From IMG/VR virus record IMGVR_UViG_3300016745_000460, positions 1 to 20,924 of that record: DNA of 20,924 bases. One strand, written 5' to 3'. The position numbers were made by a program, and so were the translations under genes. Source of the stretch: a virus. The notes beneath the pieces are model-generated. The model was not told where the DNA came from. It saw nothing but the letters and a program-made list of their open reading frames with translations, and did no database searches. Shown in pieces: positions 1,083 through 10,344 of this stretch; positions within the stretch are counted from its first letter, which is position 1, and every line of letters starts with the position of its first letter.

Positions 1083-1402
1083 GTAAGATATTGGAGACCT
1101 ATGATAAGGACAAGAATGGCGTTATCGATTCGGATGAGCTTGCTCTTATTGAACTTGAGGATCGCCGTCGTAAGATGGAAGATGAGGACGCTCAAAGAGA
1201 TTCGATCAGGAAGATGGCGTGGTTTGCGCTCTTTGGTTTACTGCTTTATCCCAGTGGTATTTTTATATGTAGTCTTGTCGGACTTGATAAAGCGGCTAGC
1301 CTTATCACTGACATCGCAGGGACATACTTCATAGCAGTGTCCGCCCTTGTTGCTAGTTTCTTCGGAGCCAGCGCATATCAATCAAGGGGGACTAGCAAGT
1401 GA
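1079..1402 (+). CDS. EF-hand membrane protein, two TM helices
   Basis: The protein has 107 residues. Residues about 8-20 read YDKDKNGVIDSDEL, a complete EF-hand calcium-binding loop with D at loop positions 1, 3 and 9, N at 5, G at 6, a hydrophobic residue at 8 and E at 12. A charged helix follows, then two hydrophobic membrane segments at about 46-66 and 78-99. A single EF-hand joined to two TM helices suggests a membrane protein that senses or binds Ca2+. It starts inside the stop of the previous gene (ATGA) and its own stop overlaps the GTG of the likely holin, so lysis control is the natural guess. No function is known to me. Confidence 0.75.
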   Translation: MSKILETYDKDKNGVIDSDELALIELEDRRRKMEDEDAQRDSIRKMAWFALFGLLLYPSGIFICSLVGLDKAASLITDIAGTYFIAVSALVASFFGASAYQSRGTSK

Positions 1403-1776
1403 TACAGGCATTGTTGCCCATGATTGGGGATATCGCTGGAGGCTGGATCAAAGGCAAGGCTGAAGAGAAAGCCGCCGCGTCTAAAGCCAGGGTCGCCAAG
1501 GCTGAAGCTGAAGCTGAGGTGATGAAGGTTGCCGCTACGCACGAGGCGTCTTGGGAAAAGATCATGGCCCAGGGTTCTAACGAATCATGGAAAGATGAGG
1601 CGTGGACCGTGTGCTTCATCGTGATAATTTCTATGTGCTTCATTCCGCACACACAGCCGTATGTTGCTAGAGGGTTTGAGGTCTTATCCACCACGCCTGA
1701 TTGGTTTCAGTGGGCAGTGTACGCAAGCATCGCGGCAAGCTTTGGTTTGCGTGGAATGAAGGGGCTGAAGAAGTAA
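1399..1776 (+). CDS. Probable holin (GTA-type 3-TM-like)
   Basis: This 125-residue protein has a GTG start that overlaps the previous stop (GTGA). The N-terminal third is an amphipathic segment followed by an Ala/Lys/Glu-rich helix at about 19-50. Residues about 64-85 and 98-118 are hydrophobic membrane helices, with a basic C-terminus. The order of an amphipathic start, a charged helix, a Trp-containing junction (SWKDEAW) and membrane helices resembles the holin family found in gene-transfer agents and marine phages. The next gene is an endolysin without a signal peptide, which needs a holin to reach the cell wall, and this supports the call. Confidence 0.65.
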   Translation: MIQALLPMIGDIAGGWIKGKAEEKAAASKARVAKAEAEAEVMKVAATHEASWEKIMAQGSNESWKDEAWTVCFIVIISMCFIPHTQPYVARGFEVLSTTPDWFQWAVYASIAASFGLRGMKGLKK

Positions 1777-1791
1777 GTGAGGTATATGGAT

Positions 1792-2214
1792 ATGGACGTA
1801 GATAAGTTAAAAGACCAACTAATTCTACATGAAGGCTTAGAGCTAAAGAGTTACCAATGCAGTGCAGGATTCATAACGCTCGGGGTCGGGCGCAACGTCG
1901 AAGAGTTAGGCATCACCGAAGACGAAGCCAGATACCTTTTGGACAACGACATACTGAGAGTGACCAAGGAACTGGACGACAACCTCCCGTGGTGGAGGGA
2001 CCTGAGCGAAGTACGCCAGAGAGTCCTAGTTGATATGGTATTCAATCTCGGCATCAGTCGATTCCTAAACTTCAAGAATATGATTGCCGCACTAGAAAGC
2101 GGGGACCATGAAGAGTCAGCCGCTCAAATGTTAGACAGCCGTTGGGCAGACCAAGTTGGTCAGCGAGCTACACGCCTGGCGACTGCAATGGTTGAAGATA
2201 CGCTGGAGGTTTGA
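1792..2214 (+). CDS. Endolysin, GH24 (T4-type) lysozyme
   Basis: This enzyme cleaves the glycan strands of peptidoglycan during lysis. The ATG at 1792 is chosen because AGG at 1780-1782 is well spaced for it; a GTG at 1777 and an ATG at 1786 are in frame. From this start (140 residues) the catalytic pattern is E14, C23 and T29, giving the E-8-residue-D/C-5-residue-T spacing of T4-type lysozymes with Cys where T4 has Asp20. It is followed by GVGRNV and the helical C-terminal lobe with a conserved W near WADQVG. The length is slightly below T4 lysozyme. There is no signal peptide or SAR anchor, so export depends on a holin. Confidence 0.9.
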   Translation: MDVDKLKDQLILHEGLELKSYQCSAGFITLGVGRNVEELGITEDEARYLLDNDILRVTKELDDNLPWWRDLSEVRQRVLVDMVFNLGISRFLNFKNMIAALESGDHEESAAQMLDSRWADQVGQRATRLATAMVEDTLEV

Positions 2215-2215
2215 C

Positions 2216-2359
2216 ATGAGTCTTTACGAGAACATGAATAAGCGCAAGAAGAAAGGCACATCGCGCCCTGCGAGTGAGTCAACGATTAGCGATAAGACTT
2301 ACTCTATGATGCGGCGCAAGACCGGCGGGTTTAAGAAGAAGGATAAGGACAATGGCTAG
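2216..2359 (+). CDS. Small basic protein, 47 residues
   Basis: The start is ATG at 2216 with CTGGAGGT upstream; the lysozyme stop ends two bases before. The protein is very rich in Lys, Arg and Ser, with a KRKKKG patch near residue 10 and FKKKDK at the end. It should be soluble and could bind nucleic acid or be a minor virion component. From memory, short proteins starting MSLYxN and carrying this basic patch are common next to the following gene in marine phages, without known role. Its end overlaps the next gene by eight bases. Confidence 0.65.
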   Translation: MSLYENMNKRKKKGTSRPASESTISDKTYSMMRRKTGGFKKKDKDNG

Positions 2360-2645
2360 CTCTCCTGCATGGACTCGCAAGGAAGGCAAGAACCCAAAGG
2401 GTGGGCTGAACCAAAAGGGACGGGACTCTTATAAGGGTGGCACCCTAAAGGCGCCCGTAAAGAAAGGTGACAACCCGCGTCGCGCTAGCTTCCTTGCAAG
2501 GATGGGCAACATGAAGGGGCCGGAAAAGAAGAACGGTGAGCCAACAAGATTGCTCTTGTCACTCAGAGCCTGGGGAGCATCAAGCAAAGCTGACGCCCGT
2601 GCAACAGCAAGGGCTATCAGCAAACGGAATGAAGCCAAAGGTTAG
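2352..2645 (+). CDS. Basic phage protein of the SPAWTRKEGKNP type
   Basis: The protein has 97 residues and is rich in Lys, Arg, Gly and Asn. The N-terminal motif SPAWTRKEGKNPKGGLNQKG and the middle motif NPRRASFLARMGNMKGP are, from memory, hallmarks of a small phage family of unknown function that is common in marine phages (I believe DUF6321, not checked). The C-terminal RAWGASSKADARATA forms a helix. The charge suggests nucleic-acid or virion association. Its TAG stop overlaps the stop of the convergent leftward gene, leaving no room for a terminator between the two transcription units. Confidence 0.7.
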   Translation: MASSPAWTRKEGKNPKGGLNQKGRDSYKGGTLKAPVKKGDNPRRASFLARMGNMKGPEKKNGEPTRLLLSLRAWGASSKADARATARAISKRNEAKG

Positions 2646-2914
2646 CGCATCCATCTAGGGGCGCAGGTTACATCTACTACGATCGATGTAGGCCTTCCGT
2701 TAATTGCTCTCTTTGTCCATATCGGAACGGCACGGAGACCTGATGTCTCGCACTCCTTGATAGCATCAATAGTTTCTGATCTCGACATCGCATACAGCGT
2801 GTCCTCTAATACCAAAGTTTGATTTGGCGTTTCGCTCGTAGGCTTAGACGCCCCGCTAAAAGCGGAGCATCCTTGCACTGCGGCGCATATGAGCATGATT
2901 GTAATCATCTTCAT
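2642..2914 (-). CDS. Small putative lipoprotein
   Basis: The protein has 90 residues. A short basic start (MK), a hydrophobic segment and then VQGC form a probable lipobox, with Cys16 as the lipidated residue. This predicts export and membrane anchoring, although the lipobox is imperfect. The mature part has Cys at about 55 and 84, flanking a conserved-looking core (GLRAVP ... VVDVT). GGAG lies 7 bases before the ATG. It is the last gene of the leftward unit and overlaps its upstream neighbour (ATGA). It might act like an outer spanin near the lysis genes, but it is on the opposite strand from them. Confidence 0.6.
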   Translation of the reverse strand: MKMITIMLICAAVQGCSAFSGASKPTSETPNQTLVLEDTLYAMSRSETIDAIKECETSGLRAVPIWTKRAINGRPTSIVVDVTCAPRWMR

Positions 2915-3081
2915 TTTTTGCTCCGACTATCTGTGTTAAGTACAGCGTCTGGGTTGCGCAGGAATATTGACTGATTCTGAGGCTTCTTCCTGTGTTCAAT
3001 GTCGAGCCTATGAATGTCCATCCTGTTTGCAATCCACGCCTGCCTCAATAGTTTACGCCAGTGATGTCCAGCTTGACCCAT
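2911..3081 (-). CDS. Small basic protein of unknown function
   Basis: The ATG at 3081 is preferred because AAGGTGGGG lies just upstream; an ATG at 3132 is in frame but has weak ribosome binding and would overlap the neighbour by 80 bases. From 3081 the protein has 56 residues, rich in Arg, His, Lys and Gln (HHWRKLLRQAW, RMDIHRLDIEHRKK), and no membrane segment. It overlaps the preceding gene by 29 bases and the following lipoprotein gene by ATGA. I do not recognise it. A DNA-linked role would fit its charge and its neighbours, but nothing proves it. Confidence 0.45.
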   Translation of the reverse strand: MGQAGHHWRKLLRQAWIANRMDIHRLDIEHRKKPQNQSIFLRNPDAVLNTDSRSKK

Positions 3082-3412
3082 TGTCCCCACCTTGATTCCT
3101 AGCCTGCGGTTGCTGTCGCTCTTGCGGCTCATTCACATAAAGGTCTGCATAGCATGTCGCCGGGAATGCTTTGACATCACCCCCAGGAATGCGCTTCTTG
3201 ATTGTCATCTGTAGTTGCATGCCGTTGTCATGCATCAGTTTATGAATCTGATCAACGATAGCCTCCTGCTCTGGGGTCATCGGATTCCTGCGACGGGACG
3301 CTTCGTCCCATCCGTTATCCAATTGCAACCAGCACTGCACCTGATAGGTTTCGTTAGCTGGCATGTCGGCTTTAAGTTTCACTTCGGCTTTTGATATCTG
3401 CGCTCTTGGCAT
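3053..3412 (-). CDS. Unknown protein of the recombination operon
   Basis: The ATG at 3412 is chosen because AAAGGAGAG lies directly upstream; the frame is open further but that part overlaps the next gene. The protein has 119 residues. The body (about 1-95) looks folded and includes ETYQVQCWLQL, a helix from PEQEAIVDQ to KLMHDNG, then a strand-like TIKKRIPGG. The last 25 residues are rich in Gln, Asn, Gly and Ser and look disordered, as in ssDNA-binding proteins, but I see no diagnostic OB-fold motif. It directly follows the annealing protein gene, 16 bases away, so a role in recombination or replication is likely. Confidence 0.6.
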   Translation of the reverse strand: MPRAQISKAEVKLKADMPANETYQVQCWLQLDNGWDEASRRRNPMTPEQEAIVDQIHKLMHDNGMQLQMTIKKRIPGGDVKAFPATCYADLYVNEPQERQQPQARNQGGDNGSSWTSLA

Positions 3413-3428
3413 GATGCTCTCTCCTTTG

Positions 3429-4181
3429 TTAGAACGGTATGTCGTCTTCTGTGTTTGGGTTAGGTAATGGGGCTGGGGTTGGGTCGTCGTTTGGGGCTGG
3501 TGCCCCACCATCACTCGGAACCTCTCCTTCTCCTGGGGACTCAGTAATCTTCCCCGCTCTCTCCTTGACAGCATTTTTAACTAACTCCGCGTTGGCTTTG
3601 TTTTGTTTTTCAAACTGCTCAAGTTTGTTGGCGTTTGCGGCCAGCCACCCTTGCAGTTCTCCTTGTGTCTGAATGTTATTCACCTGGCGAATGTAGTCCT
3701 CCGCCAGTTCAGCGCCAGTGCGTACGTTCGCGACTGGAGCAGGTTTTGCTGTGCGCTTGCTGTTCTCCTCCTTTGCTTTCTCTTTGCGCCCGACTCCATC
3801 AAGCTCATTTGCGCTGGCATACTCCCCACCGCTGAGACCGATAGCACTGAGCGCCCTACCGATTGCAGAAGTTTCGCAGTTCTCTATGGCTGAAGTCTTA
3901 TTGACTAAGCCTACGTCGCGCAATTCTTCTGCATGCCCTGTGCCGAGAGTGACCGAGGGCGAGTCAATAGTATGGATGATCGCCTTAACAACGACGCGAG
4001 TGCCGTCATCGATAAGTATCTGTGTCGAGACACCAACGTCCAACCCGTGATGTTCGCGCAATGCTTCCATTCGATGGACAACCTGCGTGTATAACTTGCC
4101 GCCTTTCTGCGTAACGCCATGCGTCTTGTTCAGTTCAGCAACGTGGGCCATTGTGTCAGCCCACTTCTTTCTAGTCTCCAT
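3429..4181 (-). CDS. erf: Single-strand annealing protein (ERF/Rad52-like) with SSB-like tip
   Basis: This is a phage recombinase of the ERF-like type that anneals complementary single strands. The start at 4181 overlaps the exonuclease stop (TAATG) and has GGAG nine bases upstream, giving 250 residues. Residues about 95-126 carry NKTSAIENCETSAIGRAL followed by SGGEYASANEL, the hallmark segment of these annealing proteins. Residues 130-160 are a charged, Ala/Lys-rich linker, 160-215 are helical, and the end is Pro/Asp/Glu-rich. The last residues, EDDIPF, match the acidic tip of bacterial SSB proteins that recruits partner enzymes. With the PD-(D/E)XK exonuclease next door it forms a two-component recombination system. 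Confidence 0.8.
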   Translation of the reverse strand: METRKKWADTMAHVAELNKTHGVTQKGGKLYTQVVHRMEALREHHGLDVGVSTQILIDDGTRVVVKAIIHTIDSPSVTLGTGHAEELRDVGLVNKTSAIENCETSAIGRALSAIGLSGGEYASANELDGVGRKEKAKEENSKRTAKPAPVANVRTGAELAEDYIRQVNNIQTQGELQGWLAANANKLEQFEKQNKANAELVKNAVKERAGKITESPGEGEVPSDGGAPAPNDDPTPAPLPNPNTEDDIPF

Positions 4182-5116
4182 TATTCGATGCTCCATATTG
4201 ATCGTGCTTCTTGTAAATATCCCTCTGGAGCGTTCCATCCTAGGTTATCCCAATCGGGATAGACCAAAGATAGCAACTCGTGAGGGGTTCTTGCGGCCTT
4301 CAACATATTCTCAGTGATACGATTCATCAGCCTTATCTGCTTCACAACTTCCTCCAGATACTCTGGCTTCAATTGATCGCAGTTATCTTGGTTTAAGATT
4401 CTGTAGTCATCTTTGTTTGCGTATAGTAGCCACACCGGCTTGCGTCCATTGATCTCCCATCCACCGGCGACCTGATAGACGTTCGCAATATCGAAGCGAC
4501 CACTCAGATCTTTGGGTAAATTGTTATTAGCGAACCCACTCTTAGTCCGTGAGTTGCGGGTAGACCATTTAGTTTTGAGGTCACCTACTCCTGCATAGTC
4601 AGGCAGGTTCTTGTGCCCAAGCTCATTCCCAGGCAGTGCCCCGTATAACTCTGTCTCTCCGAAGATCTCCGAGCCAGCCATCACTTCCCGCAAACCAGCT
4701 AGTGCGCTCTGTATCACGCCCTCTAGCTCAGTCTCATACTGCGTCCACTTTGCGGCGTCGATGCCGTCATCCCAATCGCGTGGGATGTACTTCATGTACT
4801 GTTGATAAGTAGACGCCATAACTTCTGCGGGGTCTTTACGTTCAAGCAGGATTGCATCGCATGCAGACTGAACCAGCCTGCCGCATAGCATGTTGGCATT
4901 GTCTGAACCATTGTATCCTTGATCCAGCCGGTAGATAACTTCCCATGCCTGTTCTTGTTGCACGTTATCAGAGTCCGGATTCTTGATGACCTCCCAGGCG
5001 CCCCTTACTTTAGGACGGACCACGCATTTATCGAAGAACACTTTCGCTTGGTCGCGGTTCTTCATGTTGGAATGCCAGAAATAATTGTGGCGTCTCGCCC
5101 AATCAGGGATGATCAT
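4181..5116 (-). CDS. PD-(D/E)XK exonuclease (RecB/YqaJ/Cas4-like)
   Basis: The protein has 311 residues. E154/E156 (GETELYGALP), D173 (LPDYAG), D179-L-K181 (GVGDLKTK) and Q215 (VYQVAGGW) follow the order of the RecB-like nuclease core: acidic residue, D, then D/E-x-K, then a Q-containing helix. Such phage nucleases resect double-stranded ends to give the single strands used by an annealing partner. The gene starts inside the stop of the HTH gene (ATGA) and ends at the start of the annealing protein gene (TAATG), so all three are co-translated. The N-terminal 100 residues are helical and probably cap the active site. Confidence 0.8.
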   Translation of the reverse strand: MIIPDWARRHNYFWHSNMKNRDQAKVFFDKCVVRPKVRGAWEVIKNPDSDNVQQEQAWEVIYRLDQGYNGSDNANMLCGRLVQSACDAILLERKDPAEVMASTYQQYMKYIPRDWDDGIDAAKWTQYETELEGVIQSALAGLREVMAGSEIFGETELYGALPGNELGHKNLPDYAGVGDLKTKWSTRNSRTKSGFANNNLPKDLSGRFDIANVYQVAGGWEINGRKPVWLLYANKDDYRILNQDNCDQLKPEYLEEVVKQIRLMNRITENMLKAARTPHELLSLVYPDWDNLGWNAPEGYLQEARSIWSIE

Positions 5117-6510: not shown

Positions 6511-6666
6511 TCTAAAAGCATTACGCTCCGCTTGCGGTCCCGGAGGGGTACGTGTTCAGAACACGTACGTGTTAAGCATGTACGTGTTACTAAACACTTT
6601 CTTATTCAAAACACTTTCAATGCACGTGCTATGCACTGTCTCAAATTCTGTGGATAACTTTCAGGC
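6511..6666. other. Candidate replication origin: repeats plus DnaA box
   Basis: This non-coding gap carries three direct copies of GTACGTGTT (6548-6556, 6565-6573, 6580-6588). One of them is half of a near-perfect 19-base palindrome, TACGTGTTC-A-GAACACGTA, at 6549-6567. Two copies of AAACACTTTC (6592-6601, 6609-6618), the palindrome GCACGTGC (6622-6629) and a consensus DnaA box (6649-6657) follow. The stretch from 6588 to 6620 is AT-rich. Direct repeats, AT-rich DNA and a DnaA box together fit an iteron-type origin. The gap also separates two convergent transcription units. An alternative is a cluster of regulator sites. Confidence 0.45.
6649..6657 (-). other. Consensus DnaA box
   Basis: The plus strand reads TGTGGATAA, the complement of TTATCCACA, the strongest DnaA-binding sequence in Escherichia coli. 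A nine-base match can occur by chance, but it lies directly beside the direct repeats of the same gap. Confidence 0.5.
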
Positions 6667-6692
6667 AAAAAAAAAGCCCGGCGAACCGGGCT
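6667..6692 (-). terminator. Intrinsic terminator of the ribozyme operon
   Basis: On the minus strand the RNA folds as AGCCCGG, loop UUCG, CCGGGCU, followed by a run of nine U (plus-strand A run 6667-6675, whose last A also pairs in the stem). This is a textbook Rho-independent terminator, about 20 bases after the stop of the last leftward gene. No equivalent U run follows any hairpin inside the operon. Confidence 0.9.
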
Positions 6693-6696
6693 GAAG

Positions 6697-6714
6697 ACAC
6701 ACAGGGGAGTGTGT
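6697..6714 (-). other. 3' UTR hairpin exposing an anti-Shine-Dalgarno loop
   Basis: The minus-strand RNA reads ACACAC, UCCCCU, GUGUGU: a six-pair stem with a C-rich loop between the last stop codon and the terminator. The segment UCCCCUGUGUGU is complementary over 12 nt to ACACACAGGGGA, the ribosome-binding leader found before the operon's genes (full 12 nt at three leaders, shorter at the others). It could pair with those leaders in cis or in trans. Regulation is inferred; the complementarity is directly visible. Confidence 0.5.
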
Positions 6715-6896
6715 TAGATAGTCAGTGAGTGACGATACACGATCGCCATCACTGTTCCAAAGTGTTTTTGATTGGGTCTAACCGCACGATACCCCTGATG
6801 AGTGCGGCTAATGTGCATCACGCTCAGATGATTGCGGAGCATGATTGATTTTGCATCCGCTAGCGCATCTAGCGGATTGAGTTTGAATCCAAACAT
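6714..6896 (-). CDS. Last gene of the ribozyme operon, unknown
   Basis: The protein has 60 residues, is basic with several His, and has no membrane segment. No family recognised. It begins inside the previous gene with a 28-base overlap, which suggests translational coupling rather than separation by a ribozyme; this is one of the two gene junctions in the operon without one. The terminator follows shortly after its stop. The frame is moderately convincing because of its position between a gene end and the terminator. Confidence 0.55.
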   Translation of the reverse strand: MFGFKLNPLDALADAKSIMLRNHLSVMHISRTHQGYRAVRPNQKHFGTVMAIVYRHSLTI

Positions 6897-7276
6897 GGAT
6901 TGTCCTTGAGCCTGTATTGGGCAAATCGTTTGCCGTTATGTTTAATCATGGTCGAGGTGATATTGTATCCCCTTCCTCTCAGATCATAAATGCGAGCAGA
7001 CAATCGCATACAGCCAATTTCCATCGTGGATTCCCACTGAGTGATTGAACCATTGCGTTTCATGAATGCCAAAATAAGGTCGCATTGAGCGCCCTTGGTT
7101 TGCTCCTCGGTTGAGTCGAAGTCTTCAGACGGATCGATTGTACGAACGATCGCTGATAGTGCGGCAGGGCCGCTCTCCATTGTGCGTTCTGCGAAATCGT
7201 CTGCCGCATTTTTGCTTTCAGCATAAAAAGTGACAGTCCCGCCGTCAGAATATTCAACGTCGATTGCGTGCTTCAT
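6869..7276 (-). CDS. HTH-domain protein (HTH_39-like)
   Basis: The protein has 135 residues. The start is preceded by the operon's common leader AAGGGGAAATAC. Residues 1-60 resemble a small domain that begins with strand-like segments (VEYSDGGTVTFYAE) and ends acidic. Residues about 66-122 form a winged helix-turn-helix: QCDLILAFMKRNGSITQWESTMEIGCMRLSARIYDLRGRGYNI, then a wing-like NGKRFAQYRL. This domain is common in small phage proteins (I believe the Pfam HTH_39 type) and probably binds DNA. It is the most recognisable gene of the operon and may be a late regulator or host-directed factor. It follows ribozyme A. Confidence 0.65.
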   Translation of the reverse strand: MKHAIDVEYSDGGTVTFYAESKNAADDFAERTMESGPAALSAIVRTIDPSEDFDSTEEQTKGAQCDLILAFMKRNGSITQWESTMEIGCMRLSARIYDLRGRGYNITSTMIKHNGKRFAQYRLKDNPCLDSNSIR

Positions 7277-7298
7277 ATTGTATTTCCCCTTGATGTGC

Positions 7299-7358
7299 GA
7301 CCTGTCTTATCAATACGGGTAGGTCACATCCCGTAGACCGGGCGAACCCGGTTTCGAC
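7299..7358 (-). ncRNA. Type II hammerhead ribozyme A
   Basis: Minus-strand RNA order: GUC (stem II), GAAA, stem III CCGGG-UUCG-CCCGG, UC, then cleavage between 7336 and 7335. Stem I follows as UACGGG/CCCGUA, then the core UUGAUAA, GAC (stem II) and AGGUC. AGGUC pairs with GACCU in loop I, forming the pseudoknot typical of type II hammerheads. The core differs from CUGAUGA at C3 to U and G8 to A, which keeps a Watson-Crick 3-8 pair. The G of the upstream gene's UAG stop is the first base of stem II. Cleavage lies 22 nt after that stop and leaves a 59-nt leader before the next AUG. Confidence 0.85.
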
Positions 7359-7726
7359 TATGCAAGATGGTTCAAGTGGTGACGCTTGAGCAACCCAAAC
7401 AAATATTTTGTCGAGCTTTCTAGCTCATCACCAAACACTCTGAACTCTGTGTGCAGTACGCACTCTTCCATGAACATTGGGACAAAGTCACAGTCGAAGG
7501 GTTCATCATAATCAAGCTCATCCTTGACCATGTTGTAGACCTGTTCGCATGACACAGCCAACTCTGAGATCTTGTCTCTTGTATGAGCCATGCCGTGCTG
7601 TCTTCTGAACGCCTTCAAATCGTGATCGTCGTCCAATTCTTGGAAGTATTCATTGATGACCTGCGCTGTGAACAGCAGTTGGTCAGCCTGAATTCCGCAC
7701 ACTTTTTCATTAAGAATGTTTTCCAT
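7358..7726 (-). CDS. Acidic unknown protein of the ribozyme operon
   Basis: The ATG at 7726 is chosen because it follows the operon's shared leader (AGGGGAAATAAA); longer frames would run into ribozyme B. The protein has 122 residues, is acidic (DDDHD, DELDYDEPFDCDF), helical, and has no membrane segment or signal peptide. No family recognised. Acidic small proteins are frequent among phage inhibitors of host factors, which is a possibility only. Its UAG stop lies at the edge of ribozyme A, and ribozyme B lies upstream. Confidence 0.65.
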   Translation of the reverse strand: MENILNEKVCGIQADQLLFTAQVINEYFQELDDDHDLKAFRRQHGMAHTRDKISELAVSCEQVYNMVKDELDYDEPFDCDFVPMFMEECVLHTEFRVFGDELESSTKYLFGLLKRHHLNHLA

Positions 7727-7744
7727 TTTATTTCCCCTATGTGA

Positions 7745-7811
7745 TTGCCCTGACATCGTCAGATCGGGTAAGGCAAGGTCCCCGATGACGCACCCGGAGG
7801 TGCGTTTCGTC
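7745..7811 (-). ncRNA. Type II hammerhead ribozyme B
   Basis: RNA order: GAC (stem II), GAAA, stem III CGCACC-UCCG-GGUGCG, UC, cleavage between 7787 and 7786. Then stem I AUCGGG/CCCGAU, the core CUGACGA, one extra U, GUC (stem II), and GGCAA pairing with UUGCC of loop I. Stem II is inverted relative to the other copies (GAC/GUC instead of GUC/GAC), a double change that preserves pairing. The extra U after A9 is unusual and may reduce activity. Cleavage lies 24 nt after the upstream stop, and the downstream leader is 60 nt. Confidence 0.8.
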
Positions 7812-8272
7812 TATGCAAAAAGCTCATCAAATTCAGCAACCTGAATTGATAGAACGGATGTGGCTTTGTTGTCGAGACCAATGATGACCTCGATTGCACG
7901 GCCTTGGTTGCTATGCCAGACAGCGGTCAGTCCGGCATCTTCAAGATCATGCACCAGTTGCTGTGCATGCATGTGCATCTGCGCTTCCCGGCGGTCACCT
8001 TTCGGATACCACGGGAAATTAACGTAAACCTGAAAGCCGTTGGTCTCTAGATCATTCGCCAGCACATTGTCGCTCCAATCTGCATGCGATTCAGTCCAGA
8101 AATAGCATGGTTGGTTAAGCTCCTCCATGCGGGCTTTGAACTCCTTGAGCATAGATTTGTTGAGACCTACGCGGGCAGAGACTTTACGCTTGGGCCTGCT
8201 GTCACGCATGACACTTTTGAAAGTTTCATACTGAGCCGCCTTGATACGCTGAATGATTTTCATGTGATTCAT
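7811..8272 (-). CDS. Unknown protein of the ribozyme operon, 153 residues
   Basis: The start is set by the shared leader AGGGGAAGCATT before the ATG. The basic N-terminal half (KRKVSARVGLNKS, then a helix around MLKEFKARMEEL) precedes a mixed half with QVYVNFPWYPKG, DAGLTAVW and RAIEVIIGLD, which look like alternating strands and helices of a compact domain. No membrane segment and no recognised family. The stop lies inside ribozyme B, and ribozyme C lies before the start. Confidence 0.65.
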   Translation of the reverse strand: MNHMKIIQRIKAAQYETFKSVMRDSRPKRKVSARVGLNKSMLKEFKARMEELNQPCYFWTESHADWSDNVLANDLETNGFQVYVNFPWYPKGDRREAQMHMHAQQLVHDLEDAGLTAVWHSNQGRAIEVIIGLDNKATSVLSIQVAEFDELFA

Positions 8273-8291
8273 AATGCTTCCCCTGTGTGTG

Positions 8292-8357
8292 TCATCCTGT
8301 CTAATCATGCCGGGTAGGATGAGGTTCCCGACGACACACCCGAAGGTGTGTTTCGAC
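8292..8357 (-). ncRNA. Type II hammerhead ribozyme C
   Basis: RNA order: GUC, GAAA, stem III CACACC-UUCG-GGUGUG, UC, cleavage between 8333 and 8332. Then stem I GUCGGG/CCCGGC (one U-G wobble), the core AUGAUUA, GAC, and AGGAUGA pairing with UCAUCCU of loop I over seven bases. The core has A3 and U8 in place of C3 and G8, again a compensated pair and a third version of it in this array. Cleavage lies 25 nt after the UGA stop; the leader is 60 nt. Confidence 0.8.
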
Positions 8358-8597
8358 TCAAAGGCAAATGCGTATACGTTCGATGGTGTGCTTGCCGCGT
8401 ACCAGCCGGTGATCGACTTTGACGCGACGGCCAACGAAGGCATGCCAGTCATGCGCTTGCACCCAATTGGCATTGCAGGGTGTGTAAAAGCACTCTGCTG
8501 TGCCGGGCTTGTTACCGATCAATAGCATCCAACGTGGGTTGCCATTACGTGTGTTCAGTTCGCGTGATACTTGCAGTACGTTTGCATGTGTTTCCAT
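8358..8597 (-). CDS. Small basic unknown protein of the ribozyme operon
   Basis: The ATG at 8597 follows the shared leader AGGGGAAATATC. The protein has 79 residues and is basic, with Cys at about 36, 41 and 79. The stretch PRWMLLIGNKPGTAECFYTPCN, then HDWHAFVGRRVKVDHRLVRGKHTI, looks like a small beta-barrel rather than a helical protein; a nucleic-acid-binding OB- or SH3-like fold would be compatible, but this is a guess. It ends in UGA directly before ribozyme C. Confidence 0.65.
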   Translation of the reverse strand: METHANVLQVSRELNTRNGNPRWMLLIGNKPGTAECFYTPCNANWVQAHDWHAFVGRRVKVDHRLVRGKHTIERIRICL

Positions 8598-8617
8598 GAT
8601 ATTTCCCCTGTATGTGC

Positions 8618-8680
8618 CACCCTGTCTTATCAATACAGGTAGGGTGAGATTCCTGTAGACGCCCCGGAGGGCGTTTCGAC
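8618..8680 (-). ncRNA. Type II hammerhead ribozyme D
   Basis: RNA order: GUC, GAAA, stem III CGCCC-UCCG-GGGCG, UC, cleavage between 8658 and 8657. Then stem I UACAGG/CCUGUA, the core UUGAUAA, GAC, and AGGGUG pairing with CACCCU of loop I over six bases. As in copy A, C3-G8 is replaced by U3-A8. The G of the upstream UAG stop is the first base of stem II. Cleavage lies 22 nt after the stop; the leader is 60 nt. Confidence 0.85.
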
Positions 8681-9027
8681 TATGCCATTTCAACCGTTTC
8701 TTCTGTCACGTACTTGCATGTGTATGTGACCTCATCGCCTTTGAATCTATCGAACACCTTGAAGTGCTTAGCGACAAATCGAAACTCGATATCTTTACGG
8801 CCTCGATACGCATGTTCATTTTGAAACTGCCAGTTGACAGCTTTGAGATACCCAACGTCGAAATCATCGTCTGGACTCGGTTCAGCGTCGAATGTTCCAC
8901 CGGGATGTGACACCCGTTGAACTTCAAGCATCGGTATCCATTGTGATGTCTTCCATTCAGACCACTTGCGGCCCTCTTTTTTGCGGTATTGACATGCATA
9001 TGAATTGGCTTGGATTAGATTTTCCAT
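8680..9027 (-). CDS. Unknown protein of the ribozyme operon, 115 residues
   Basis: The ATG at 9027 follows AGGGGAAATACA. The N-terminal half is rich in Lys and Trp (RKKEGRKWSEWKTSQW), an acidic loop follows (PSPDDDFD), and a strand-rich C-terminal half includes IEFRFVAKHFKVF and VTYTCKYVTEE. It is soluble, with no signal peptide. I do not recognise it. The stop touches ribozyme D, and ribozyme E lies upstream. Confidence 0.65.
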   Translation of the reverse strand: MENLIQANSYACQYRKKEGRKWSEWKTSQWIPMLEVQRVSHPGGTFDAEPSPDDDFDVGYLKAVNWQFQNEHAYRGRKDIEFRFVAKHFKVFDRFKGDEVTYTCKYVTEETVEMA

Positions 9028-9048
9028 TGTATTTCCCCTGTGTTGAGA

Positions 9049-9109
9049 TACCTGTCTCATCAGTGCCGGGAGGTAAACCCCGGTCAGACGGGCCGAAGCC
9101 CGTTTCGAC
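9049..9109 (-). ncRNA. Type II hammerhead ribozyme E (consensus core)
   Basis: RNA order: GUC, GAAA, stem III CGGGC-UUCG-GCCCG, UC, cleavage between 9087 and 9086. Then stem I UG(A)CCGGG/CCCGGCA with one bulged A, the full consensus core CUGAUGA, GAC, and AGGUA pairing with UACCU of loop I. The C(UUCG)G tetraloop is one of the most stable RNA loops known. All core bases (C3 to A9, G12-A14, A15.1-U16.1, C17) match the consensus, so this is a strong candidate for activity. Cleavage lies 23 nt after the stop; the leader is 59 nt. Confidence 0.9.
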
Positions 9110-9370
9110 TTATGCAGTTGTGATGCCCTCAGCAATGTAAATTCGGTTGAGGGTAAGCACTAGATCATGCTTGGTATCAGCGCGGGCGATGACTTTGGTG
9201 AAGCCGTCCGCATTGCGTATCGATGTGTCTTTGGCAAGCCACCGACCTCCAACTTTTAAAACGGAGATGTGTTCGTTGCCTTTGACAACCCATTCTGCTG
9301 AGTCTGTTCCCATGCCGTTTCCAAGCCATTCTGTAGACTTAGTTTTGGTCAGCTTGATGTAGTTTTTCAT
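9110..9370 (-). CDS. Small unknown protein of the ribozyme operon, 86 residues
   Basis: The ATG at 9370 is set by the shared leader AGGGGAATAC; the longer frame would cover ribozyme F and the small genes upstream. The protein has a basic, Thr/Lys-rich start (IKLTKTKSTEW), then strand-like segments (SAEWVVKGNEHISVLKVGGRW) and a C-terminal helix (TKHDLVLTLNRIYIAEG). It is soluble. Not recognised. Confidence 0.65.
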   Translation of the reverse strand: MKNYIKLTKTKSTEWLGNGMGTDSAEWVVKGNEHISVLKVGGRWLAKDTSIRNADGFTKVIARADTKHDLVLTLNRIYIAEGITTA

Positions 9371-9388
9371 TTTGTATTCCCCTGTGTT

Positions 9389-9450
9389 TGAGATGTCTTC
9401 ATCAGACCGTGGTCTCTCACACCACGATGACGGGCAAGGCCCGTTTCGAC
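9389..9450 (-). ncRNA. Type II hammerhead ribozyme F
   Basis: RNA order: GUC, GAAA, stem III CGGGC-CUU-GCCCG with a three-base loop in place of UNCG, UC, cleavage between 9429 and 9428. Then stem I AUCGUGG/CCACGGU (seven pairs, one wobble), the consensus core CUGAUGA, one extra A, GAC, and UCUCA pairing with UGAGA of loop I. The extra base between A9 and stem II resembles that of copy B. Cleavage lies 22 nt after the UAA stop; the leader is 58 nt. Confidence 0.8.
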
Positions 9451-9537
9451 TTAGTACCAATCGGTTGACCGTAGGACCGCCCATGCAAGGATGGTGATGC
9501 CCCAAAGGATCAAGAAGGTTTCTTCTGCGCCAGTCAT
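9451..9537 (-). CDS. 28-residue single-TM microprotein
   Basis: MTGAEETFLILWGITILAWA is followed by a short polar tail (VLRSTDWY): one predicted membrane helix with an acidic N-terminus. The ATG overlaps the preceding stop by one base (TGATG) and has GGGAGGTGAT at ideal spacing, by far the best ribosome-binding site of the operon. The stop is followed immediately by ribozyme F. Very small phage membrane peptides often act on host membrane proteins or lysis, but no function can be assigned here. Confidence 0.65.
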   Translation of the reverse strand: MTGAEETFLILWGITILAWAVLRSTDWY

Positions 9538-9611
9538 CAGATCACCTCCCAGAACTTGAGAGTGCCAAATGCGAAAGCCGCGCTAAATGAAAGAATGATT
9601 AATAGTTCCAT
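9537..9611 (-). CDS. 24-residue single-TM microprotein
   Basis: MELLIILSFSAAFAFGTLKF ends in WEVI. The whole peptide is one hydrophobic membrane helix with a single Lys near the end. The ATG lies exactly where a gene start is expected relative to ribozyme G, after the shared leader AGGGGAATACAC and 57 nt from the cleavage site. Its stop overlaps the ATG of the next microprotein. Together the pair forms the only two-gene segment between two ribozymes. Confidence 0.65.
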   Translation of the reverse strand: MELLIILSFSAAFAFGTLKFWEVI

Positions 9612-9630
9612 GTGTATTCCCCTGTGTGTT

Positions 9631-9691
9631 GCCCTGTCTCATCAGTGTGGGTAGGGCGTGATCCCACAGACCGCCCGGAGGCGGTTTCGAC
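9631..9691 (-). ncRNA. Type II hammerhead ribozyme G (consensus core)
   Basis: RNA order: GUC, GAAA, stem III CCGCC-UCCG-GGCGG, UC, cleavage between 9669 and 9668. Then stem I UGUGGG/CCCACA, the consensus core CUGAUGA, GAC, and AGGGC pairing with GCCCU of loop I. Every core base agrees with the hammerhead consensus and all stems are perfect. Cleavage lies 23 nt after the stop of the first gene; the leader of the microprotein pair is 57 nt. Confidence 0.9.
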
Positions 9692-10054
9692 TTATGCGCT
9701 TTCAATCAGCTTTCTGATTTTCTTGATGACTTTGCGTTCTGCTTCAGCCATTTTTTTGTTGCCGTACGCGATGGCTTCTTGAGGTGTTTTAAATGATTTG
9801 GCGCGAGGTGCTTGTCCGAATCTTTCACCGTTCCGTTCATTTCTCAGAAACACTGTAAAATCCCTTGGAACGAAATCTTCAGGTCTGACCCAACACCGCT
9901 TTGACCATTCCGCATTCTCGTCTTTGGTGTAGTCAAACTGCCAAACCAAAAAACTGAATCCGATGACTCTGCCTTGAGCATCTCGCAATCCAAATTCTTT
10001 GCTTTCTTCAGCGACAATTTTTTCTTCACGTGAACATGTAATTAAGTTAGTCAT
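9692..10054 (-). CDS. First gene of the ribozyme operon, unknown
   Basis: The protein has 120 residues and starts after the shared leader AGGGGAATACAC. The N-terminal part (about 20-75) has strand-like segments (GRVIGFSFLVWQFDY, KRCWVRPEDFV, FTVFLRNERNGERFG), and the C-terminal 45 residues form a basic helical stretch (KTPQEAIAYGNKKMAEAERKVIKKIRKLIES). No family recognised. As the promoter-proximal gene it should be the most strongly expressed of the unit. The type III ribozyme lies in its leader, and its ribosome-binding site may be paired within that ribozyme. Confidence 0.65.
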   Translation of the reverse strand: MTNLITCSREEKIVAEESKEFGLRDAQGRVIGFSFLVWQFDYTKDENAEWSKRCWVRPEDFVPRDFTVFLRNERNGERFGQAPRAKSFKTPQEAIAYGNKKMAEAERKVIKKIRKLIESA

Positions 10055-10061
10055 TGTGTAT

Positions 10062-10126
10062 TCCCCTGTGTGTTTCGCGGATACTGCCGCTCATCAGTCA
10101 GGCTGGTTGCCTGAGACACTAGGGGG
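10062..10126 (-). ncRNA. Type III hammerhead ribozyme H in the operon leader
   Basis: RNA order: GUG, UC, cleavage between 10115 and 10114. Then stem I UCAGGC-AACCA-GCCUGA, the consensus core CUGAUGA, stem II GCGG-CAGUAU-CCGC, GAAA and CAC, which pairs with GUG to close stem III. The open stem is III, so this is a different permutation from the seven type II copies. The catalytic core is complete at 10070-10119. Stem III can be extended: UUCCCC upstream of the cleavage site can pair with GGGGAA, the ribosome-binding site of the first gene. The leader after cleavage is 60 nt. Confidence 0.85.
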
Positions 10127-10303: not shown

Positions 10304-10344
10304 ATTATAATCATAGTGTGACGCATTACGTCAACACCTATGTG
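10304..10344. promoter_or_regulatory. Divergent promoter region with second operator copy
   Basis: GTGACGCATTACGTCAAC (10318-10335) matches the palindrome at 5828-5845 in 14 of 18 bases. Leftward, TTGACG (complement of 10329-10334), a long 19-base spacer and TATAAT (complement of 10304-10309) would start the ribozyme operon near 10297. Rightward promoter elements are weak (GTGACG with TATGTG at 10339-10344). The site lies between the ribozyme operon and the packaging genes, so the same regulator could act on both. Confidence 0.55.

Follow-up and report, generated by a model that had tools for sequence, protein, structure and literature searches.

Layout of the operon

Why should the 3' end of a phage operon carry a short hairpin that reads as the complement of the ribosome-binding leaders of that operon's own genes? 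We addressed this question in a 20,924-base virus record, the whole of which was analyzed and is called the window here. Its terminase is nearest to those of Pelagibacter podophages (best identity, 57.5%), and no DNA match to the operon was found among named phages. On the minus strand, gene A (10054) opens the operon and gene I (6714) closes it, with an intrinsic terminator at the end. Eight of its proteins were scanned against Pfam, and the only solid match was a winged helix-turn-helix domain in gene H.

9692..10054, minus strand: gene A
9537..9611, minus strand: small ORF B, 24 amino acids; a second small ORF (9451-9537) overlaps its end
9110..9370, minus strand: gene C
8680..9027, minus strand: gene D
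8358..8597, minus strand: gene E
7811..8272, minus strand: gene F
7358..7726, minus strand: gene G
6869..7276, minus strand: gene H, winged helix-turn-helix domain (HTH_39)
6714..6896, minus strand: gene I, small; overlaps gene H and has no preceding ribozyme

A first-pass annotation of this DNA had described a common leader before almost every gene of the operon. It is present ahead of eight minus-strand genes, and the two ORFs without it (9451-9537 and 6714-6896) are small and overlapping.

10058..10071, minus strand: leader A, Shine-Dalgarno sequence (SD) GGGG
9614..9627, minus strand: leader B
9374..9387, minus strand: leader C
9030..9043, minus strand: leader D
8600..8613, minus strand: leader E
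8275..8288, minus strand: leader F
7729..7742, minus strand: leader G
7281..7294, minus strand: leader H, the weakest partner of the hairpin

The leader is the tail of a hammerhead ribozyme

The annotation was right about a shared ribosome-binding leader but overlooked the larger unit to which it belongs. The leader occupies the 3' end of an approximately 100-nt repeat, and this repeat is a hammerhead ribozyme motif. Read on the minus strand, the elements ahead of the leader follow the order GUC-GAAA, hairpin, GUC, hairpin, CUGAUGA-GAC, which is the plan of a type II hammerhead. In each intergenic region our descriptor found one type II copy, seven in all, against a background of 2 matches in 1.47 Mb of reversed sequence. 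A type III-like copy ahead of gene A came from the Rfam search, so that a ribozyme precedes 8 of the 10 operon ORFs. By the descriptor, all seven type II copies have closed stems I and III, an open stem II, the GAAA and CUGANGA core, a 3-8 pair, and an N-U-H triplet. Loop I forms a pseudoknot of 4 to 8 bp per window copy with the tail after stem II, its sequence varying.

10067..10122, minus strand: type III-like hammerhead before gene A (copy 1); the 3' strand of its stem III is leader A
9628..9692, minus strand: type II hammerhead
9387..9451, minus strand: type II hammerhead, above the Rfam threshold
9046..9110, minus strand: type II hammerhead
8616..8681, minus strand: type II hammerhead, core pair U3-A8
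8291..8358, minus strand: type II hammerhead, core pair A3-U8
7744..7812, minus strand: type II hammerhead
7307..7359, minus strand: type II hammerhead, core pair U3-A8; descriptor match, unreported by Rfam

In a search within this record, six of the seven type II copies matched Rfam family RF02276 with E values of 1.6e-4 or better. Against the gathering threshold of 37, one scored 38.7, three scored 35.0 to 36.9, two scored about 24, and one was unreported. Copy 1 scored 28.4 bits against RF00008 (E 0.022), below the gathering threshold of 48.5, and on this basis we class it only as type III-like. It is kept in five relatives, among which stem II shows paired changes. The predicted fold of copy 1 has a slipped register and may compete with the active fold; its SD GGGG is predicted to be fully paired before cutting and 26% unpaired afterward. 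Judging by the ribozyme models, the copies of the operon presumably self-cleave, and the predicted cuts would all leave 5' leaders of 57 to 60 nt. The first bases of the predicted downstream products are 10114, 9668, 9428, 9086, 8657, 8332, 7786, and 7335.

The terminal hairpin is complementary to all eight leaders

Two elements follow the last gene:

6697..6714, minus strand: anti-leader hairpin, loop UCCCCU; an 18-base element directly before the operon terminator
6666..6692, minus strand: intrinsic terminator of the operon, stem 6692-6675 plus U run

The annotation had placed the complementary segment in a hairpin with its C-rich loop exposed, and folding bears this out. On the minus strand, positions 6696-6714 read ACACACUCCCCUGUGUGUC, and the element forms a hairpin with a 6-bp stem and the loop UCCCCU (-7.1 kcal/mol). 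The hairpin follows the stop of gene I, which ends at 6714, and is separated from the terminator stem by 4 nt. Folded together, hairpin and terminator give two clean hairpins (-21.1 kcal/mol, z -5.4), and none of 200 shuffles was as stable. The inverted copy was also considered as a ribosome-binding site on the plus strand and was rejected because the next start, a GTG at 6709, reads two codons.

The central claim of the annotation, that the 3' end of the operon is complementary to all of its own leaders, was confirmed for 8 of 8 leaders. The unbroken Watson-Crick match to the hairpin is 12 nt in leaders B and F, 10 in C and D, 8 in E, and 6 in G and H, and leader A pairs over 12 bp. Three copies do reach 12, as annotated, but here they are A, B, and F rather than C, G, and H. 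Pairing energies, the check proposed for each leader, ranged from -17.4 to -23.9 kcal/mol for the eight operon leaders, and 28 other start regions of the phage gave -3.0 to -13.3 kcal/mol. When the cost of opening was subtracted, -6.4 (H) to -14.6 (B) kcal/mol remained. We shuffled the 250 nt downstream of the last ribozyme-bearing gene 400 times, preserving dinucleotides, and no shuffle reached the observed mean complementarity; nor did any of 20,036 other positions on the same strand. The complementarity is not due to chance. The hairpin has two features of autoregulatory small RNAs derived from 3' untranslated regions (UTRs): it lies at the 3' end of an operon with an intrinsic terminator, and it is complementary to the translation start regions of that operon.

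The hairpin is conserved in the window clade

We sought relatives of the operon by terminase, pattern, and protein searches. These gave loci L087, L088, L089, and L090, plus L091 to L093, which are almost identical to the window; L009, L094, L095, and L096 are the same contig as, or near copies of, the L087-L090 set. Despite differing gene content, the relatives have a hammerhead and leader ahead of nearly every gene. The hairpin was present in 11 of 11 clade loci examined, which were found via the terminator and thus independently of the hairpin, and is kept in all five related operons found. In L088, the 3' element overlaps the end of gene I. Within the element, UCCCCUGUGUG is invariant across the clade, and a cleavage-like triplet after UCCCCUGUGUG varies. 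Both pairing partners are near-invariant in the clade, and covariation is therefore not visible within it.

The ribozymes of the clade vary at core pair 3-8, which is changed but still paired in three window copies (8616-8681, 8291-8358, and 7307-7359). Among 25 distinct clade copies, it is C-G in 17, U-A in 5, A-U in 3, and unpaired in none; in other viral loci, it is C-G in 179, U-A in 1, and G-G in 1. On sequence evidence, the clade copies with an altered pair are natural hammerheads in which the core pair is compensated. The U3-A8 pair was reported by Perreault 2011, and A3-U8 goes unmentioned in the sections of that survey considered here (PMC3088659).

Anti-leader elements in other ribozyme arrays

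Such ribozymes are widespread, based on a pattern scan of viral contigs that returned at least 120 stretches. We assembled 33 arrays with at least three ribozyme-leader genes, with overlapping loci of the same contigs removed before counting. The 3' zone was readable in 29 and unreadable in four; of the readable arrays, six that are closely related to the window or to L225 (L087-L091 and L246) were left out, giving a set of 23. Each phage tends to be marked by its own standard leader, and we tested the zone after the last ribozyme-bearing gene for complementarity to the leaders of that same phage. Shuffles did as well in 0 of 400 trials for each of six window-clade contigs and for L225, in 1 of 400 for L246, in 4 of 400 for L223, and in 6 of 400 for L255. 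For L225, L246, L223, and L255, no equally good position occurred elsewhere on that strand of the same locus.

Leader-swap permutation among the 23 unrelated arrays gave P = 0.00025 (0.0029 with the window removed), and adding four arrays from bacterial genomes gave P = 0.00025 (0.0025 with the window removed). Without the window and the L225 family, P was 0.046, and with L255 also removed it was 0.12; the signal thus rests on few families. An array's own 3' zone ranked first for its own leaders in 5 of 23 cases, with about 1 expected. A convincing anti-leader hairpin was absent from at least 16 of the 23 viral arrays, and an anti-leader element was found in none of the four bacterial-genome arrays (L291, L325, L315, and L284). 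Fifteen further genome regions yielded only L328, a negative two-copy array, and L330. The latter shares its source symbiont with L284 and scored 8.0, a value reached at 20 of 17,079 background positions. Across several contigs of this organism, the Bathymodiolus japonicus methanotrophic gill symbiont (L284, L325, and L330), there are 14 Hammerhead_II matches, arranged in arrays that share a leader.

The L225 family is among the clearest cases outside the window clade. In L225, L246, L262, and L263, a strong, long hairpin starts at most 30 nt after the stop of the last gene, and its pyrimidine loop complements the leader GAAAGGGAAG. L264, whose last protein shows 63% identity, has a homologous hairpin that retains GGCAGG/CCUGCC, with loop UAGUUGCCCG and leaders GAAAGGGCAACG. 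The loop motif GUUGCCC is the exact complement of GGGCAAC in its own leader, and leader and loop have therefore changed together in L264; within the family, the contrast is that of L261 with L264. More distant relatives (L265-L269) have a large hairpin whose loop fits the leader imperfectly. Named phages matched L225 only in its last gene, in actinophages, and the descriptor found no hammerhead in five named phage regions with a relative of that gene. In both the window clade and the L225 family, gene content varies between relatives and ribozyme-leader modules recur, some of them in front of different genes, as though the cassettes had been reshuffled.

In L255, which had no DNA match among named phages, the loop UUCUCUCUCC faces the leader GGAGAGAGAA; this leader is a purine-rich SD that pyrimidine runs match easily, as its shuffle count reflects. 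Energies computed across families were strongest on the diagonal, that is, for each hairpin with its own leader, which illustrates the pairing rather than tests it, because the elements were picked after the fact. Three other high-scoring loci were kept out of the clear cases: the L223 match lies in a partly paired stretch (its hairpin possibly matches its own leader), the L227 match lies some 430 nt downstream and has no clear hairpin, and the L256 match, judged by eye, apparently misses the SD. L223 (reverse-complement coordinates 1251-4843) has eight hammerheads, mostly with a long stem III and with little or no loop I pseudoknot, the CA-repeat leader GGCACACACAUG ahead of most genes, and one 87-base match among named phages. 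At L189 4238-4304, a hammerhead over the Rfam cutoff (46.1 bits) precedes a stretch that has many possible hairpins and no ORF.

The last leader is the weakest partner

The leader of the last ribozyme-bearing gene was the weakest partner of the hairpin in all five window-clade contigs tested, in three of four members of the L225 family, and in L264. It tied for weakest in L255 and was second weakest in L223. The "whole set" of genes that, according to the annotation, could be silenced may therefore exclude the last cistron. This pattern fits action in trans that spares the hairpin-bearing RNA. Another reading is that the last genes are a fixed anchor that simply retained an older leader.

A proposed model for control of the operon and its alternatives

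That the hairpin-leader pairing is a real, selected feature is well supported by these comparisons. We favor, as reasonably probable, an autoregulatory anti-leader RNA, in which ribozyme-leader-gene cassettes would be turned down by the terminal hairpin. The operon would consist of interchangeable cassettes, each joining a small gene to a hammerhead and the common ribosome-binding leader. Ribozyme cleavage would turn the transcript into mRNAs that mostly have a single gene and a 5' leader of 57 to 60 nt, and the last mRNA would carry the 3' hairpin, whose loop UCCCCU is the complement of the shared leader. The loop would dock on the leader GGGG and then zip up via the 3' arm of the hairpin, blocking ribosome binding so that translation of the cassette drops. 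Repression would strengthen as the operon transcript accumulates, giving negative feedback. The hairpin would work mainly in trans and would spare the last cistron. The predicted cutting into mostly single-gene mRNAs would explain the use of a trans-acting anti-leader. Pairing in cells, repression, processing, and ribozyme cleavage are inferred. The antisense regulator of the first-pass annotation stands as far as the pairing goes, given its presence in 11 of 11 clade loci, its recurrence in unrelated arrays, and the joint loop-leader change, but that reading had overlooked the hammerheads.

More tentatively, and with rather less than an even chance of being right, several phage lineages may have independently built plug-in regulons of cassettes that are cut apart, share a common leader, and answer to one complementary hairpin in the last cistron. 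The cut-apart genes would be under common control because all share one leader. A new gene arriving with the standard leader would be regulated at once, the last cistron would be spared by its deviant leader, and leader and loop would change together when a lineage changes its code. The window suggests a logic in which ribozymes would make separate mRNAs, a standard leader would mark them, and one terminal hairpin would control them all, a compact natural way to control many genes through a single short RNA.

The strongest alternative, although an unlikely one, is that 5'-3' pairing takes place in cis or between whole mRNAs, with no separate small RNA. In icaR, the 3' UTR pairs in this way, with the UCCCCUG motif set against its SD (PMC3868564), and release of a short RNA is a prediction of the favored model. 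However, the predicted ribozyme cuts would part leaders A to G from the 3' end, and leader H, which would remain joined to the hairpin, pairs with it least well in all five window-clade operons.

Less probable still is that the hairpin is a mere 3'-end protector or part of the terminator, with a functionless leader match inherited from a copied leader. Its stable fold 4 nt from the terminator stem and the near-invariance of both partners in the clade are what such an origin would give, but the hairpin loops of unrelated arrays complement their own, differing leaders, and in L264 loop and leader are altered together.

We regard as very improbable a generic anti-SD decoy against host mRNAs, or a mimic of the 16S tail, comparable to toxic small RNAs with C-rich loops. 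The Betaproteobacteria toxic small RNA family (RF02278/S17; PMC11722255) also has a hairpin with a C-rich loop followed by a GCCCGG terminator, and our hairpin resembles it weakly (29.3 bits versus a threshold of 50, E 0.024). With a score far below the family threshold, the hairpin is not assigned to RF02278, a family that is not known to be linked to phage operons. In addition, other gene starts are much poorer partners for the hairpin than the leaders of its own operon, and in L264 the loop GUUGCCC fits its own leader without resembling an SD.

Finally, the hairpin could scarcely be a hammerhead relic or substrate, a stem III 5' strand and cleavage triplet pairing with the 3' strand of stem III in copy 1: UCCCCUGUGUGUC is indeed complementary to GAAACACACAGGGGA in that strand, but we rejected the idea because the triplet is not conserved (GUC becomes GAC in L088 and L089), and hairpins of other arrays have no such triplet.

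Comparison to known systems

The c4 RNA of phages P1 and P7 is a phage antisense RNA that comes from the same transcript as its target and is aimed at the ribosome-binding region; it lies upstream of that target, has only the one, and serves in immunity.

OppZ and CarZ of Vibrio cholerae are small RNAs derived from 3' UTRs that repress their own operons from the 3' end; RNase E releases them, Hfq is required, and OppZ pairs at oppB, after which oppBCDF fall together (PMC7398697). As in the window, RNA from the operon's own 3' end is complementary to the translation start region of that operon. The phage operon differs in that it is predicted to be split by hammerheads and in that one loop fits a leader repeated before eight genes. 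In icaR of Staphylococcus aureus, UCCCCUG in the 3' UTR pairs with the G-rich SD region and blocks the SD, and compensatory changes demonstrated the pairing in vitro (PMC3868564). The phage hairpin likewise sets UCCCCUG in a 3' region against a G-rich SD, but icaR is a single gene with a long 3' UTR and has neither ribozymes nor a repeated target.

Clusters of type II hammerheads with a loop I-tail pseudoknot are found in prophages, where they flank single genes or short blocks, and polycistronic RNA from three arrays, all other than that of this phage, was cut in vitro (Perreault 2011, PMC3088659). In the sections considered, that survey, which found the clustered phage hammerheads, left their role open and described neither a shared leader nor a complementary 3' element; the phage operon has both, with its ribozyme before 8 of 10 ORFs. 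In the open-licence literature we found no antisense element whose target is a leader recurring within its own operon and no anti-leader element in a hammerhead array. The combination of hammerheads, shared leader, and anti-leader hairpin is unusual. OppZ and CarZ, icaR, and the prophage hammerheads are precedents showing that steps of the kind proposed here are each possible.

Flanking sequences

Two features lie just outside the operon. Upstream, at 10319-10333, the palindrome TGACGTAATGCGTCA overlaps a promoter-like site and is a possible operator. Downstream of the terminator, at 6546-6603, a long inverted repeat gives a weak match to a microRNA model on both strands and is probably a structural hairpin.
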